The notes below the pieces were generated by a model. It was not told where the DNA came from, did no database searches, and saw only the letters and a list, made by a program, of their open reading frames with translations. DNA of 46,825 nt, taken from assembly GCA_022072415.1 (NCBI GenBank), contig JAJVHW010000051.1:1-46825 (forward strand). The letters run 5' to 3'. Source of the stretch: Planctomycetota bacterium. GTDB lineage: Bacteria > Planctomycetota > JAJSAM01 > JAJVHW01. Numbering within the stretch: the stretch's first letter is position 1; each line of letters opens with the position of its first letter. Positions 5,022-40,014 of the stretch are shown in pieces. The position numbers were made by a program, and so were the translations under genes.

Positions 5022-5126
5022 GGTTCACGCCCATGCGGTTCACGCCCACGTGGTTCACGCCCACATGGTTCACGCCCACATGGTTTACGCCCACATGGTT
5101 TACGCCCACATGGTTTACGCCCAAAC
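5022..5126. repeat. Seven exact-period 15-bp tandem repeats (ggttcacgcccacat)
   Basis: Units start at 5022, 5037, 5052, 5067, 5082, 5097 and 5112. Confidence 0.97.
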
Positions 5127-32526: not shown

Positions 32527-34554
32527 TCAGCGGGTGCGCGTCACCCGCCAGATCGCCGCGAAGGTGGACACGTACAGGCTCCCGTCGGACGCGATCTGGA
32601 CGTCGAGGGGCTTGCCGTCGATCCCGGTCTCGTCGAACCGGAGGAACGGGCGCTCTTCGTCGAGGTCGGAGACCGTCGGGCCGGAGAGGCGGATCGTCCG
32701 CACGTCGGCCCCGTCGTACCCGGCGAGGAAGAGGACCGACTCCCACTCCGGGCCGAAACCGGCGCCGTCGTGGAACGCGAGGCCCGTCGGCACGATCACG
32801 GGCGTCCAGTCGATGATCCGCCGCCCGCGGAGGGGGCCCGGGATCGACTCGGGGTCCTCGGACCCCCACTCGAAGTTCTTCCCCGCCTGCACGAAGTCGA
32901 GTTCGTCGTGCGCCGTCGGCCCGTTCTCCGTGACGAAGAGTCCGCCCGTCGGGCCGTGGAACGTCAGGTCGAACGGGTTCCGGAACCCGATGGCCCAGAC
33001 GGGGCTCGACGGGTCCGGGTTCGACGCGGGGACGCGGCCGTCCGGCGCGTACCGGAGGACGCAGCCGGCGAGGGACGCCGGGTCCTGGGCGCGTGCAGGG
33101 TCGCCCGTGTCGCCGACGGTCACCCAGAGCATGCCGTCCGGACCGAACTCCACCGCGCCCGCGTTCTGGGTGACGCCGCTCGGCAGGTCGTCCACGATCA
33201 CGTCCGGCCCGGCGACGGACTCGACCGGACCCGCGGGCGGCGACACCGTGTACCGGAGCACCCGCGTGCGCTCCGCGTGCCCCGCTTCGGCCGCGGTGGT
33301 CGCCGTCACGTAGACGCGGCCCGACGACGCGAAGTCGGGCGAAGCGCAGATCCCGAGGAGGCCGCGCTCGCCGCCCGTCACGACGGGCACAGTCACGAGA
33401 GGTTCCGGGTCCAGCGCGCCGTCGGCGGACACAAGCCGGACGTTCCCGCTCAGGAGCTCGGCGTAGAGCATCCTGCCGTCGGGGAGGAGCGCCATGCGGA
33501 CGGGGATCGCCGCCTCGGTGACCTTGGCGATTCCGAAGCCTGGAAGAAGTTCGGCGACGCCGGCGGGAAGCTCCGGGTCCACGGCGATCGTCAGGTCCGC
33601 CGACGTCGAGCCGCGCGCGTTCCGCGCGGTGACCGTGTACACCGTCGGCGGGCTCGTGGACACCGGCTCGCCGGAGATCCCGCCGGTCTGCGGGTCGAGG
33701 GCGAGGCCGTCCGGGAGCGGGGGGAGGATCGTGAACGCGAGGTCGTCGCCGGAGACGGTCGCCGAGACGGCGAGAGACTCCGCGACGCGCGCATCCACGA
33801 CGTCGTCGTCGAAGGAGAGGTCCCGCGGCGGCGCGAGGTCGAGCGTGCCCGGCGGGCCGACGTTCACGAGGCGCACGTCGAGGGTCGCGGCGCCGCTCGT
33901 CACGCGAACGACTCCGACGCCGGCGGCCGCGCCCATCGTGAACGCGTGGACCGCCCCGCCTCCCCCGGGAGCCGCTGCGACCGCACCGGCGCCGTCATCC
34001 GCAAGTTCGACGACCACGTCGCCGCCCGGCGAGGCTGCGACGCGGAGCCGCACTGCGTCGCCCGGCTCGTGGACGAGGACCGTCCGCCCGGTCTCGACCG
34101 CATGCACGTCGCCGATCGGGCCGAGCCGCCGCCGCGCACGAGCGATCGACGCGGCGGCGCGGCCGGTTGCCAGCATCGCGTCGAGATCGGAGGCTGCGCC
34201 GACTTCGTCCGCCGCGCGGTCAATCCTGCGCCGCGCGTCGAGCAGGCCGACGCGGAGGTCGCGCGCCATCCCCGCAGGCCGCACGTCGCGGATCGCGGTG
34301 GACGCGGCGGTCGCGGACTGCGCAGCGTCTCCGAGCGCGAGGGCGGCGGTCCGGTCGTCATCCGCGAGGAGCGCCGCCGCGGCATCGGCGAGCCGCCCCT
34401 CGCACGCCCGCAGCGCAGCGTCGAGTGCGTCGCGCGGCTCGCCCGCGAACGACGCCCCGCCGCAAAGGAGCGGCGCGAGCACGAGCGGCGCGAGCAGGAG
34501 CGGCGCGAGCACGAGCGTCGGACGCATCGGCGGCATCGTGCCACGGATTGCCAT
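32527..34554 (-). CDS. PQQ-dependent sugar dehydrogenase-like (glucose/sorbosone dehydrogenase) with Ig-like domain
   Basis: MRMALLPDGRMLYAEL..., VSVGDTGDPARAQDP-type segment, GFRNPFDLTFHGPTGGLFVTENGPTAHDELDFV; start is ATG 34554 or 34527. Confidence 0.85.
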   Translation of the reverse strand: MAIRGTMPPMRPTLVLAPLLLAPLVLAPLLCGGASFAGEPRDALDAALRACEGRLADAAAALLADDDRTAALALGDAAQSATAASTAIRDVRPAGMARDLRVGLLDARRRIDRAADEVGAASDLDAMLATGRAAASIARARRRLGPIGDVHAVETGRTVLVHEPGDAVRLRVAASPGGDVVVELADDGAGAVAAAPGGGGAVHAFTMGAAAGVGVVRVTSGAATLDVRLVNVGPPGTLDLAPPRDLSFDDDVVDARVAESLAVSATVSGDDLAFTILPPLPDGLALDPQTGGISGEPVSTSPPTVYTVTARNARGSTSADLTIAVDPELPAGVAELLPGFGIAKVTEAAIPVRMALLPDGRMLYAELLSGNVRLVSADGALDPEPLVTVPVVTGGERGLLGICASPDFASSGRVYVTATTAAEAGHAERTRVLRYTVSPPAGPVESVAGPDVIVDDLPSGVTQNAGAVEFGPDGMLWVTVGDTGDPARAQDPASLAGCVLRYAPDGRVPASNPDPSSPVWAIGFRNPFDLTFHGPTGGLFVTENGPTAHDELDFVQAGKNFEWGSEDPESIPGPLRGRRIIDWTPVIVPTGLAFHDGAGFGPEWESVLFLAGYDGADVRTIRLSGPTVSDLDEERPFLRFDETGIDGKPLDVQIASDGSLYVSTFAAIWRVTRTR

Positions 34555-34583
34555 GCGCGTCGAGCGGGTCCGTCGCGAGGCGG

Positions 34584-34880
34584 GCGCATCCGCGAGCGGA
34601 GCAGGACGTCCACCCGCGACGCCGCGGTGGACGGCGGCGCGCTTCGCGCCGGCGTATCCGCGAGCGGAGCGAGACGTCCACCCGCGACGCCGCGGTGGAC
34701 GACGGCGCGCTTCGCGCCGGCGTATCCGCGACCGGAGCAAGACGTCAACCCGCGACGCCGCGGTGGACGGCGGCGCGCTTCGCGCCGGCGTATCCGCGAG
34801 CGGAGCAAGACGTCAACCTGCGACGCCGCGGTGGACGGCGGCGCGCTTCGCGCCGACGTATCCGCGAGCGGAGCAAGACG
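34584..34880. repeat. 68-bp tandem repeat array (about 4.4 units) abutting the tRNA-Phe 3' end
   Basis: Unit starts at 34584, 34652, 34720, 34788 and 34856 (partial). Confidence 0.97.
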
Positions 34881-34956
34881 TGGTGGGCAGACCCAGACTT
34901 GAACTGGGGACCCCAGCATTTTCAATGCTGTGCTCTACCAGCTGAGCTATCTGCCC
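34881..34956 (-). tRNA. tRNA-Phe (GAA), CCA encoded
   Basis: Reverse complement GGGCAGATAGCTCAGCTGGTAGAGCACAGCATTGAAAATGCTGGGGTCCCCAGTTCAAGTCTGGGTCTGCCCACCA; anticodon loop TTGAAAA. Confidence 0.96.
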
Positions 34957-35015
34957 ACGCGCGAGGCGCCGAACCTACCCGCAGCCGCCTCCGCTTCAAG
35001 ATTCGCGCGGGGTCG

Positions 35016-35510
35016 TCACTCCGGATCGGACCGGAGCCGCTCGGTCACCGACGCGTAGAGGGCGTCGAACACGATCTTCGACCGCTCGACCGTCTCGTGG
35101 TCGTCGCGGCAGACGAGCGGGAAGCCGCGGCAGACGGCGCGGAGCCCCGCGCCCTCGGCCGTGTCGTGGAGGCGCGGGGGGAGGTCGGCGGAACCGACGA
35201 TCCGTCCCATCTCGCGGAGGGTCTGGTCCCCGTGCTGGTACATGAGCGCGAGTTGTTCGAACGAGGTGCGGCCCTTCGCGTCCTCGTGAGGGAAGTCGGC
35301 GCCCGGCGCGTCGAAGCCGCGTGCGCCCTCGCGCGCCTGGACCGCGGCCACCTCGCCGGGCTCGACGAAGAGGAAGGTCGCGTCGGGGTCCACGAACCTG
35401 CGGATCAGCCATGCGGTCGCCGCGCGGTTCACGCGGATCCCCTTCCGCGTCACCCACTTCGTCCCGGTGCCGGCGCCCGCGCGCCTGTCCCCGTCCGTCG
35501 ATCCGCTCAT
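35016..35510 (-). CDS. Chromate resistance ChrB-domain protein
   Basis: KWVTRKGIRVNRAATAWLIRRFVDPDATFLFVEPGEV; FEQLALMYQHGDQTL. Confidence 0.8.
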   Translation of the reverse strand: MSGSTDGDRRAGAGTGTKWVTRKGIRVNRAATAWLIRRFVDPDATFLFVEPGEVAAVQAREGARGFDAPGADFPHEDAKGRTSFEQLALMYQHGDQTLREMGRIVGSADLPPRLHDTAEGAGLRAVCRGFPLVCRDDHETVERSKIVFDALYASVTERLRSDPE

Positions 35511-35517
35511 GTCTCCC

Positions 35518-36510
35518 TCACGTCCACGTGCCGCCCGCGCCGGGGACGTCGGCCCGCCACTCGCCGTCGCGGAACCTCCGGCGCATCTCCGCGATGTCGG
35601 CCGCGATCTGCGCGCGGAGCGCGTCGGGCCCGTCGAACCTCCGCTCGTCGCGGAGCTTCCCGAGGAGGAACACCTCGAGCGTCCTTCCGTAGAGGTCGCC
35701 CTCCCAGTCCGGGACGTGCGCCTCCACCGTCTCCGCGCGGCTGCCCTCGGGGTGGAACGTCGGACGCCCGCCGATGTTCACCACGCACGGCCGCGCCGCG
35801 CCGTCGCGTTCGCCGCCGATCGCGGCGACGCCTCCGTACACGCCGCGTCCCGGTCGGAGCTCGCCTTCGAGGTCGAGGTTCGCGGTCGGGAAGCCGAGGC
35901 TGCGCCCGCGCCCGTCGCCGCGGACCACCGTCCCGAAGAGGGCGGGCGGACGCCCGAGCAGGTCGCCGGCGCGCGCGAGGTCCCCCCGCGCGACCGCGGC
36001 GCGGATCGCCGACGACGACACGATCTCGCCGTCGGCCATGCGCACGGGTTCCGTGGACTCGACGAGCACGCCGAGGGGCGCGAGCCGCTCGCGCAGCATC
36101 GCGGCATCGCCGCGGCGGTCGCGCCCGAAGCGGGTGTCGTGCCCCGCGACGACTCCGCCCGCGCCGATCGCCCCGGCGAGCACGTCGTCCGCGAACGCCT
36201 CCGCCCCCATCTCGCGGAGGTCGCGGTCGAACCGCAGCACGGCCACCGTGTCCACGCCCTCGCGGCGGAGCAGATGGAGCCGGTGACGAAGCGACGTGAC
36301 GAGCGGCGGCGCCTCGCCGTGCGTGACGGCCTTCGGGTGCACGTGGAACGTGACGACCACGACCTCGCCGTTCAGCCGCGCGGCCATCTCCCGCGTGCGG
36401 GCGAGCACCGCCCGGTGCCCGCGGTGGACTCCGTCGAAGACGCCGAGCGTGACGGCCGGCCGGCGGAAGCGCTCCCGGCGGAGCGCGCCGAGGCCCTCCA
36501 GCGTCCGCAC
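35518..36510 (-). CDS. ribF: Bifunctional riboflavin kinase/FAD synthetase
   Basis: VTLGVFDGVHRGHRAVLARTREMA; VVRGDGRGRSLGFPTANLDL; LYGRTLEVFLLGKLRDERRFDG. Confidence 0.95.
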   Translation of the reverse strand: MRTLEGLGALRRERFRRPAVTLGVFDGVHRGHRAVLARTREMAARLNGEVVVVTFHVHPKAVTHGEAPPLVTSLRHRLHLLRREGVDTVAVLRFDRDLREMGAEAFADDVLAGAIGAGGVVAGHDTRFGRDRRGDAAMLRERLAPLGVLVESTEPVRMADGEIVSSSAIRAAVARGDLARAGDLLGRPPALFGTVVRGDGRGRSLGFPTANLDLEGELRPGRGVYGGVAAIGGERDGAARPCVVNIGGRPTFHPEGSRAETVEAHVPDWEGDLYGRTLEVFLLGKLRDERRFDGPDALRAQIAADIAEMRRRFRDGEWRADVPGAGGTWT

Positions 36511-36511
36511 G

Positions 36512-37033
36512 TCAGGCCGAGGCCCGGTCCGCCGCGCGATCCTCCAGCGCCTTCAGCGCGCGCCGGTTGGCGAGCTTGTCCGCGGGCGTCATCTTCGAGA
36601 GGAACGTCACGCCGTCGAGGTGGTCGATCTCGTGGAGGCAGCAGCGGCCGAGCATGCCGTCGTCCTCGATCTCGCGGACCGTGCCGTCGAGCGTCGTGTA
36701 GCGGACCTTCACGCCCTTCCGGCGCGTGATGACCGCCGCGACTCCCGGGAACGAGAGGCAGCCCTCTTCGCGGGCCTCGCTCCCCCACGCGTCCACGACC
36801 TCGGGGTTGATGATCACGATCTCGTCGCCCGGCCGGCCGGTGCCGGAGACGACCGCCACGCGCGCGTCCCAGCCGACCTGGGTCGCGGCGAGGCCGAGCC
36901 CGTTCTGGTCGAACATCGTCGCGACCATGCGCGCGGCCATGGCGCGGACATCCGCCGACGCGGGGTCGGCCTTCGCCGCGCGGCGGCGGAGGAACGGGTC
37001 GGGGTACTTGAGGACGGGCAGGAGTTCGGACAT
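36512..37033 (-). CDS. def: Peptide deformylase
   Basis: NGLGLAATQVG, EEGCLSFPG, CLHEIDHLDGVTF. Confidence 0.96.
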   Translation of the reverse strand: MSELLPVLKYPDPFLRRRAAKADPASADVRAMAARMVATMFDQNGLGLAATQVGWDARVAVVSGTGRPGDEIVIINPEVVDAWGSEAREEGCLSFPGVAAVITRRKGVKVRYTTLDGTVREIEDDGMLGRCCLHEIDHLDGVTFLSKMTPADKLANRRALKALEDRAADRASA

Positions 37034-37181
37034 GGGGATGCGGGCTCCGGGCTGCGGCGCGGCGGCGGCGCCGGGCCACGGGGAACGAGCATACTCATCG
37101 GCGCGGGGCCGGTCGGAACAATCCCCTTGCCGCCCCGGCGGGGCCCCCTACGATGCTGGAATCCAGAGGAGCCGAGCCCAC

Positions 37182-38516
37182 ATGGCGATCGACGTCAGCA
37201 AGCAGGTCCAGAAGGCCGAGCAGGCCTTCCAGACGAAGAAGTACGAGATGGCGATCGAGATCTACCTGCAGGCCCTGCAGATCGATCCCGACAACCGCGC
37301 GGCGCGGCGCGGCATCCGCCTCGCCTCGCTGAAGAAGACGGAGAACAACTACCCGAGCTCGCTGTCGATCAAGCTCTCGACGGCCTCCACCCGCGTCGGG
37401 ATGCTCCACCCGACGGCCGAGCAGCGGTTCCCCGCGTACGAGGCGTACCTCAAGGTGGACCCGAAGAACACCGACATCGGGCACCAGCTCGCGGAGGCCC
37501 TGGAGAAGGCCGGGCACCAGAACGGCGCCATCGGCGTGCTCGAGGCCATCGTCGAGATCAACCCGAAGGACGGCCAGGCGCGCACGTCCCTCGGCCGCCT
37601 CCTCGCGGGGAAGGAGCCGCAGAAGGCGCTCGAGCACCTCGAGGCGGCGCTGAAGATCGACCCGAAGAACCAGCTCGCCATCAAGACCCGGAAGGACCTC
37701 GCCGCGGAGCTCTCGATCAAGCGCGCCGGGTTCGAGACCGCGCGGACCACCCACGACCTGATCCGCGACAAGGACAAGGCGAGGGAGCTCAACCAGGCCG
37801 ACCGGCTCCAGCGCGACGCCTCGGAGTCCGGCGACCACATCTCGCGGATCGAGGCCCGGGTGCGCCAGACCCCGGGCGACCGGAAGCTCCTCCGCGAGCT
37901 CGCCCGCGCCTATGCCTCGGCGAACCGCACGGCCGACGCGGAGAACGCGTGGCAGAAGATCATCGACTCGGACCCGGCGGACTTCGACGCGAAGGTCCAG
38001 CTCGGCGACCTCCGCCTCGGCCAGATCGACCGCGCGCTCGCCGTCGCCGAGCAGAAGGGCGACCGGATCGCCGTCGACAACCTCACCCGCCGCAGGACCG
38101 AGGCGCAGATCGCCGAGTTCACGATGCGCGTGTCGGAGCACCCGACGGACCTCGGGATCCGCTACCAGCTCGGCGAGGCCCTGCTCCGGGCGGGGCGCCT
38201 CGACGAGGCGACCGGCGAGTTCCAGAAGTGCGTGAAGGACCCCCGCCGGCGGGTGGACGCCATGTGCCTCCTCGGCGAGTGCTTCCTCCAGCAGGGGCTC
38301 CACGACCTCGCCGCGCGGCAGCTCGAGAAGGCGCTGGAGGAGAGCCCGGGCCTGAATTCCGAACGGGGCAAGGCCATCGTCTATACCCTCGGCGTCCTTC
38401 GCGAGAGCCAGGGCGACCGCGCCGCGGCGAGGGACGAATACCTCAAGGTGTACGAGGTGGACGTGTCCTTCCGCGACGTGGCGAAGAAGATCGCCGCGCT
38501 CTCGAAGCCGCAGTAG
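37182..38516 (+). CDS. Tetratricopeptide repeat protein
   Basis: MAIDVSKQVQKAEQAFQTKKYEMAIEIYLQALQIDPDNRAARRG and further TPR-like repeats. Confidence 0.85.
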   Translation: MAIDVSKQVQKAEQAFQTKKYEMAIEIYLQALQIDPDNRAARRGIRLASLKKTENNYPSSLSIKLSTASTRVGMLHPTAEQRFPAYEAYLKVDPKNTDIGHQLAEALEKAGHQNGAIGVLEAIVEINPKDGQARTSLGRLLAGKEPQKALEHLEAALKIDPKNQLAIKTRKDLAAELSIKRAGFETARTTHDLIRDKDKARELNQADRLQRDASESGDHISRIEARVRQTPGDRKLLRELARAYASANRTADAENAWQKIIDSDPADFDAKVQLGDLRLGQIDRALAVAEQKGDRIAVDNLTRRRTEAQIAEFTMRVSEHPTDLGIRYQLGEALLRAGRLDEATGEFQKCVKDPRRRVDAMCLLGECFLQQGLHDLAARQLEKALEESPGLNSERGKAIVYTLGVLRESQGDRAAARDEYLKVYEVDVSFRDVAKKIAALSKPQ

Positions 38517-38587
38517 CCCAACGAAGCGCCTCGCCGGGAGAGCCCGGACGGGCGCGACAGACGCAGAGAGGAACCTGACGAGACGCC

Positions 38588-38860
38588 ATGCCCCACACCG
38601 AGCACGCCAAGAAGTCCCACCGCAAGTCGGTCCGCCGCCGCGAGCGCAACCGCGCCGCGAAGGCCGCGTACCGCACCGCCGTCAAGAAGGCGCGCGCGAC
38701 CCCCGCCGGCACCCCCGGCGCGAAGGAGTCCCTCTCGGCGGCGCAGGCGCGGCTGGACAAGGCGGCGAAGAACCGCACGATCCACCCGAACACCGCCGCG
38801 CGCATGAAGAGCCGTCTCGCGAAGGCGCAGAAGCGCACCGCCTCGGCCGACGCGAAGTAG
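38588..38860 (+). CDS. rpsT: 30S ribosomal protein S20
   Basis: MPHTEHAKKSHRKSVRRRERNRAAKAAYRTAVKKA...NRTIHPNTAARMKSRLAK. Confidence 0.95.
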   Translation: MPHTEHAKKSHRKSVRRRERNRAAKAAYRTAVKKARATPAGTPGAKESLSAAQARLDKAAKNRTIHPNTAARMKSRLAKAQKRTASADAK

Positions 38861-38960
38861 CGTCCGCCGCGCACGCCGCCGATCCATCTCGACGGATCAC
38901 TCCGCCCGGGAGTCCCTGCGCGTCAGGAGCCGGTCGGGGGCGAAGTGCGCCTCGAACCCC

Positions 38961-39230
38961 GCGCCGTATCCCCGAGTGGCGCAGTCAGTCCCCCCCGCGC
39001 CGCCGCGGTGGACGGCGCGCCTCGCGCCGTATCCGCGAGTGGCGCAGACAGCCTCCCGCGCCGCCGCGGTGGACGGCGTGCTTCACGCCGTATCCGCGCG
39101 TGGCGCAGACAGTCCCCCCCGCGCCGCCGAGGTGGACGGCGCGCTTCGCGCCGTATCCGCGAGTGGCGCAGACAGCCTCCCGCGCCGCCGCGGTGGACGG
39201 CGCGCTTCGCGCCGTATCCGCGAGTGGCGC
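38961..39230. repeat. Tandem repeat array with alternating 63/61-bp period; shares its core with the 34.6-kb array
   Basis: GTATC landmarks at 38966, 39029, 39090, 39153 and 39214. Confidence 0.95.
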
Positions 39231-39264
39231 GTGCAAAGTGCCGCGTGCAAAGCGCCGCGCGTTC

Positions 39265-40014
39265 TCAGACCGAACGCCAGAGCGCCCGGTCGAGCCCCCA
39301 CTCGCGGCAGACGCGGTCCGCCTCCGGCGCGTAGAGCGACCGAAGCGTCTCGGCGAGTCCGGGCACGTCGTTCCAGGGCTCGGGCACCTTCGCCCCGCCC
39401 GTGGCGTTCCACGTCTCGGCGCCCGGCGCGGTCACCGCGCGCGGCGGCAGTCCGAGCCGTGCGAAGAACGCCGACGCGGCCCCCGCGGGATCGGCGACGA
39501 TCCGCTCGTACTGCATGACGAGGAAGCTCGTCCGCGGGAACGCCCCGAGCCACGCGTCGAGCTGCGTGGCGTACATCCCGCCCCAGAGCGCGTCGTCGCC
39601 CTTGTCGCGCACCCAGTGGAGCCACGCGCGGCCGTCGGCCTCCGCCGGCGCGCCGGGGCGCGTCGCCATCCAGCGGAGCGACGAACGGAAGCGCTCGACG
39701 GGATCGCGGAGCAGCACGACGAGCAGCGTGTCCGCCGGCACCGCGCGGGCGAGGAGGCGCGGAACCCAGAGGCAGCGCAGGTACGCCGGGGTGAACTCCC
39801 CCGGCGCACGCACGGCCGGGAACGACGCGTGGTACGCGGAGATCCGCGCGTCGGACCAGGGCGACGCGAGGAAGCGGTCGAAGAAGTGCGCCTCCTTCTT
39901 CCCGTCGCGCGGCAGCGCCACGTCGGGGTGCTGGAGGACGAGGTCCGTGAACCAGGTCGTTCCGGAGCGCTGGGCGCCGATCCCGACCCAGGCGGGCGCA
40001 CGGCCGGGGGTCAC
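39265..40014 (-). CDS. Sulfotransferase family protein
   Basis: WVGIGAQRSGTTWFTDLVLQHP (5'-PSB loop-like), LLVVLLRDPVERFRSSLRW (3'-PB-like); GTG start overlapping the aminotransferase stop. Confidence 0.9.
   Translation of the reverse strand: MTPGRAPAWVGIGAQRSGTTWFTDLVLQHPDVALPRDGKKEAHFFDRFLASPWSDARISAYHASFPAVRAPGEFTPAYLRCLWVPRLLARAVPADTLLVVLLRDPVERFRSSLRWMATRPGAPAEADGRAWLHWVRDKGDDALWGGMYATQLDAWLGAFPRTSFLVMQYERIVADPAGAASAFFARLGLPPRAVTAPGAETWNATGGAKVPEPWNDVPGLAETLRSLYAPEADRVCREWGLDRALWRSV

Follow-up and report, generated by a model that had tools for sequence, protein, structure and literature searches.

Two related hairpin arrays in the window

The window (46,825 nucleotides, the whole of contig C11 in a 76% complete MAG of 3.86 Mb on 174 contigs) carries two tandem arrays of a hairpin-forming sequence, which raises the question of whether such arrays are kept by selection on an RNA structure, belong to a dispersed repeat family, or arose by local slippage. 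Among named records, those closest to it in gene order are Planctomycetota MAGs. Array 1 (34583-34881, + strand; 4.4 copies of 68 bp, 95% matches) and array 2 (38960-39230, + strand; 4.4 copies of 61 bp, with an alternative row of 124 bp) were both placed by TRF and match each other at 77% identity (E 1e-50), in agreement with the initial annotation, which had described two arrays with a common core, spaced at 68 versus 63/61 bp with the core retained. Array 1 contains four complete units and a partial unit at each end; the complete units lie on the + strand at 34618-34668 (51 nt), 34686-34736, 34754-34804 and 34822-34872 (covariance model E=1.0e-11, 2.5e-10, 1.0e-11 and 5.3e-12, respectively), and the array starts 8 bp beyond the 3' end of a tRNA-Phe(GAA) gene (34881-34956, - strand; ARAGORN and Rfam). 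Array 2, with a period of 61/63 bp, consists of four complete units and one partial unit, the complete ones at 38999-39043 (45 nt), 39060-39104, 39123-39167 and 39184-39228 on the + strand (E=4.2e-11, 7.7e-10, 3.2e-10 and 2.8e-11, respectively). It is flanked by two convergent genes, rpsT (ribosomal protein S20; 38588-38860, + strand; Pfam PF01649, E=3e-18) and a sulfotransferase-like ORF (39265-40014, - strand), which was predicted from its coding score and named by reading its sequence rather than by a family search. Shorter tandem repeats were also reported by TRF: a 14-bp repeat (AGTGCCGCGTGCAA x 2.6; 39223-39259) joined straight onto the end of array 2, a 15-bp repeat (GAGCGGCGCGAGCAC; 34468-34517) where the GSDH-domain gene adjoining array 1 begins, and a 15-bp unit (GGTTCACGCCCACAT x 6.8; 5022-5123) inside a very long ORF or at its border.

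The conserved unit is a single imperfect hairpin

Alignment of the copies found genome-wide defined the conserved unit as one imperfect hairpin of 45-53 nt with about 18-22 pairs, following the scheme GCCGC-CGNGG-TGG-(ACG.. stem, 3-nt tip, ..CGT)-AT-CCNCG-A-GYGGC, characterised by a bulged A and by an internal loop fixed as TGG/AT. The unit had initially been described as two hairpins; the proposed GGCGCG-CTT-CGCGCC element is instead the tip of the longer hairpin, which has two further pairings, GCCGC/GYGGC and CGNGG/CCNCG. The other proposed hairpin, CCGCG-4nt-CGCGG, joins spacer to unit and requires a spacer with CCCGC at its end; since this pairing is absent at C92, C124, C52, C171, C133 and C111, two separate hairpins were rejected as the conserved unit. 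Most units fold alone as a single stem, while unit 2 of array 1, which has a stem mismatch, adopts a different fold in isolation.

Among 31 distinct rows of the alignment, standard pairs made up 93.5% of pair cells, and two-sided changes were seen at 8 pairs in 20 cells, compared with 3.0 and 3.9, respectively, in shuffles. The covariation score was 0.138 against 0.074 in shuffled alignments, none of 500 shuffles scored as high and slid controls collapsed, although the alignment was fitted to the structure being tested, which favours that structure, and kinship among rows inflates the counts. The changes fall in different arrays: CG to GC changes were found in the middle stem (C92, C27 and C133) and in the outer stem (C124), and CG to UA changes in the apical stem (C41, C27 and C40). 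Almost all distinct units (29 of 30) were free of stop codons in all six frames, a weak result because 45% of shuffled units also pass and the units are related. At one site (C133, locus L143, 1535-1794), two sub-families stand next to each other in opposite orientation, one 45-nt unit being followed by three identical 41-nt units whose stem is GGAG/CTCC and whose tip is shortened.

Copies are dispersed in this genome and absent from relatives

A covariance model search of the 3.86-Mb MAG, of the kind proposed in the initial annotation, identified 36 units (E < 1e-5), which are spread over 12 contigs and about 16 sites or arrays; most units scored E 1e-8 to 5e-14, far beyond chance. The core is therefore not restricted to the window, and its stems are kept in the copies elsewhere. 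The same kind of search in 58 other Planctomycetota, four of them from the same family, yielded no credible copy (best E 0.0035); a wider spread in the phylum was rejected, as the weak matches in nine relatives (E 0.0035-0.09) are about the number expected by chance over 59 genomes. A phage or plasmid origin was likewise rejected, as scanning viral contigs for exact matches and searching plasmids and phages by blastn yielded no match to the repeat.

About 12 of the 16 sites or arrays were intergenic with respect to ORFs of coding potential, placement being judged from predicted ORFs in a fragmented MAG. Sites lay between convergent genes (array 2 in the window, C41, C27 and C92) or between co-directional genes (array 1, behind tRNA-Phe, and C124, C171, C52 and C133), units often lying 7-20 bp past a stop codon; no site between divergent genes was identified from the predicted ORFs, with C22 and C40 ambiguous. 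Units occur in either strand orientation relative to the neighbouring gene.

Empty sites, as would be expected for a mobile element, were found in relatives both for the window arrays and for copies within imuA and imuB (see below). The relative L093 retains the AspAT-rpsT and RibF-ChrB-tRNA-Phe gene orders, both without arrays: an ordinary long hairpin occupies the rpsT gap, and no unit was found in the DNA behind tRNA-Phe. The sulfotransferase-like ORF had no tblastn match in either syntenic relative and, in L093, the AspAT-rpsT gap lacks it, so that in this gap the gene and array 2 were either both gained in the present genome or both lost in L093.

In-frame copies in imuA and imuB

Contig C111 carries lexA, imuA, imuB and dnaE2, of which three have Pfam support (LexA, ImuB through its IMS domain, and the polymerase), while ImuA has no Pfam match and owes its name to its position and resemblance. 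The contig holds eight in-frame units within genes, at two places in imuA and one in imuB, where they are read as SSPLADTARSAPSTAAA and encode an Ala/Ser/Pro-rich linker (SPLADTARSAPSTAA); one more unit, within a predicted ORF on C1, is read in the same frame, so that all four in-gene sites share one strand and frame. In the relative G001, the ImuA matches that end at residue 159 and begin at 238 abut one another, and the same holds for those that end at 308 and begin at 412. Both unit-bearing ImuA segments are missing from four genomes of the same family, with the flanking ImuA stretches at 54-80% identity. In ImuB, about residues 195-365 are missing in the same-family relatives that cover the region while the flanking protein aligns, a comparison read from the neighbouring DNA. 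These copies amount to a clean natural experiment, a precise in-frame invasion of mutasome genes with empty sites within the family. They also extend a published tendency of intragenic palindromes to occur in DNA-repair genes, since many in-gene REPs lie in such genes, uvrA, uvrB and dnaE2 being named (PMC3733652). That the repeats act as a contingency device, in which an unstable copy number of 18-19-residue linkers tunes mutagenesis by the SOS mutasome and the ensuing mutagenic DNA synthesis both disseminates and corrects the palindromes, appears highly improbable.

A second short palindrome, GGAGTCCCG..CGGGTCGTT, likewise occurs in imuA and imuB of C111, where it adjoins the main repeat (locus L135, 7770-7795 and 8755-8780), and also on C32 (locus L161). 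Three copies of the exact pattern were found in the genome and one possible match in 58 relatives, and looser variants occur near C133.

Arrays grew by local duplication

Units are 94% identical within arrays and 80% between arrays, and the linkers of 9-19 nt are near-identical inside an array and different between arrays. Each array is accordingly best read, from these identities, as a local head-to-tail duplication of hairpin plus linker. The spacing of 68 versus 61/63 bp, initially taken to suggest selection on structure or a self-propagating family, would then reflect independent duplications at different insertion sites, each of which copied its own linker, and selection need not be invoked. 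A CRISPR was rejected on the same grounds, because linkers that are near-identical within an array are not spacers. Periods of in-gene arrays are 54 or 57 and all divisible by three, compared with intergenic periods of 55-68 (one of 103), for which 1 of 15 intervals is divisible by three; counted per array, the proportions are 3 of 3 in genes and 0 of 8 between genes (about 0.006, exact test calculated by hand).

Relative to its neighbours in array 2, the unit at 39060-39104 has one apical-stem pair changed on both sides, from C-G to T-A (CGTG-CTT-CACG). Template switching in quasi-palindromes yields paired changes of this kind (PMC7202029, PMC8794818) and may account for the one in this young duplicate. 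Covariation in a palindromic repeat should therefore not, by itself, be taken as evidence for a functional RNA.

A probable REP/RPE-like family and alternative explanations

The repeat constitutes a new REP/RPE-like family, real and dispersed, from an uncultured Planctomycetota lineage, and among the 59 Planctomycetota genomes examined it is confined to this one. Dispersal is seen; transposition itself is not, and no target-site duplication was established. Probably the repeat is a lineage-specific, non-autonomous element resembling REPs and Rickettsia palindromic elements, which was dispersed and then expanded locally by tandem duplication. Dispersal would have proceeded through a single-stranded or hairpin DNA form, on which an enzyme that did not turn up in the incomplete assembly would have acted in trans. 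Copies would survive only where they are harmless, that is, behind genes, or within genes in the single frame that encodes a linker and with a period divisible by three. At many sites the hairpin was then duplicated head to tail together with its 9-19-nt linker, giving site-specific periods. The complementarity of the arms is probably maintained in part by template switching from one arm to the other, and the element need not serve any function for the host. Of the initial reading, the preference for a self-propagating, dispersed family over simple slippage is borne out by the 36 units and the empty sites; selection on structure may have acted, but need not be assumed.

Like REPs, which are found near 3' ends where neighbouring genes converge or run in the same direction (PMC3733652), the repeat is a short, imperfect, multicopy palindrome, lineage-restricted, mainly extragenic and near the 3' ends of convergent or co-directional genes, and its grouped copies are repeated in tandem with flanking DNA, as are published REP clusters. 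Unlike REPs, it has a longer hairpin (45-53 nt) that carries the bulged A and the fixed TGG/AT loop described above, its copies are predominantly head to tail rather than inverted dimers, and imuA and imuB are among its host genes. Rickettsia palindromic elements (Ogata et al. 2000, reviewed in PMC2229807) lie between genes and are also fused in frame in conserved protein genes, with an ORF running through the element. The present repeat resembles them in combining intergenic and in-frame intragenic palindromes that are open throughout, the latter in conserved genes and absent from relatives; it differs in length (45-53 nt versus 105-146 bp), in its frequent head-to-tail arrays and in its unrelated host. 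Integron attC sites are imperfect hairpins with extra-helical bases that occur in rows, as do the present units, but attC sites were rejected because no gene cassettes lie between the units. The linkers measure only 9-19 nt, and no GTTRRRY/RYYYAAC core was seen in the units by eye.

We consider it unlikely that the repeat is a REP family tagged with GTAG or CGTC, whose mobilising RAYT transposase the assembly lacks. In favour of this, the repeat agrees with published REPs in placement, in size, in being reiterated in tandem together with flanking DNA and in having copies in DNA-repair genes, and CGTC abuts most units on C111. On the other hand, CGTC adjoins only the C111 copies and GTAG none, the hairpin exceeds those of REPs in length, and conservation is poor over the 14 nearest flanking bases. 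The initial annotation had also suggested looking for a linked transposase, and no match to the Y1 transposase of RAYT (Y1_Tnp, PF01797) was obtained in the 76%-complete assembly; this result and the lack of tags outside C111 argue against a tagged REP.

A structured RNA or 3'-UTR element selected at gene ends, such as a terminator or an mRNA-stabilising or processing hairpin, is rather improbable. The two-sided pair changes are consistent with it, as are the location of most intergenic sites directly behind genes and an outer stem that pairs G-U or G-C on the top strand and would be A-C on the other. However, both strands are used relative to genes, which argues against a strand-specific RNA, units also lie inside coding genes, and template switching can generate covariation. 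At the syntenic gene ends of relatives the hairpin is absent, in one case with a different, ordinary hairpin behind rpsT. Neither array has a terminator-like T tract, so terminators were rejected, and so was any known Rfam RNA, only two tRNAs in the window matching above the gathering score.

Simple tandem slippage at two loci without dispersal is refuted as a full explanation, because, although copies are far more alike within than between arrays, linkers are array-specific and local duplication did shape the arrays, the same hairpin occurs on 12 contigs and forms precise inserts in imuA and imuB.
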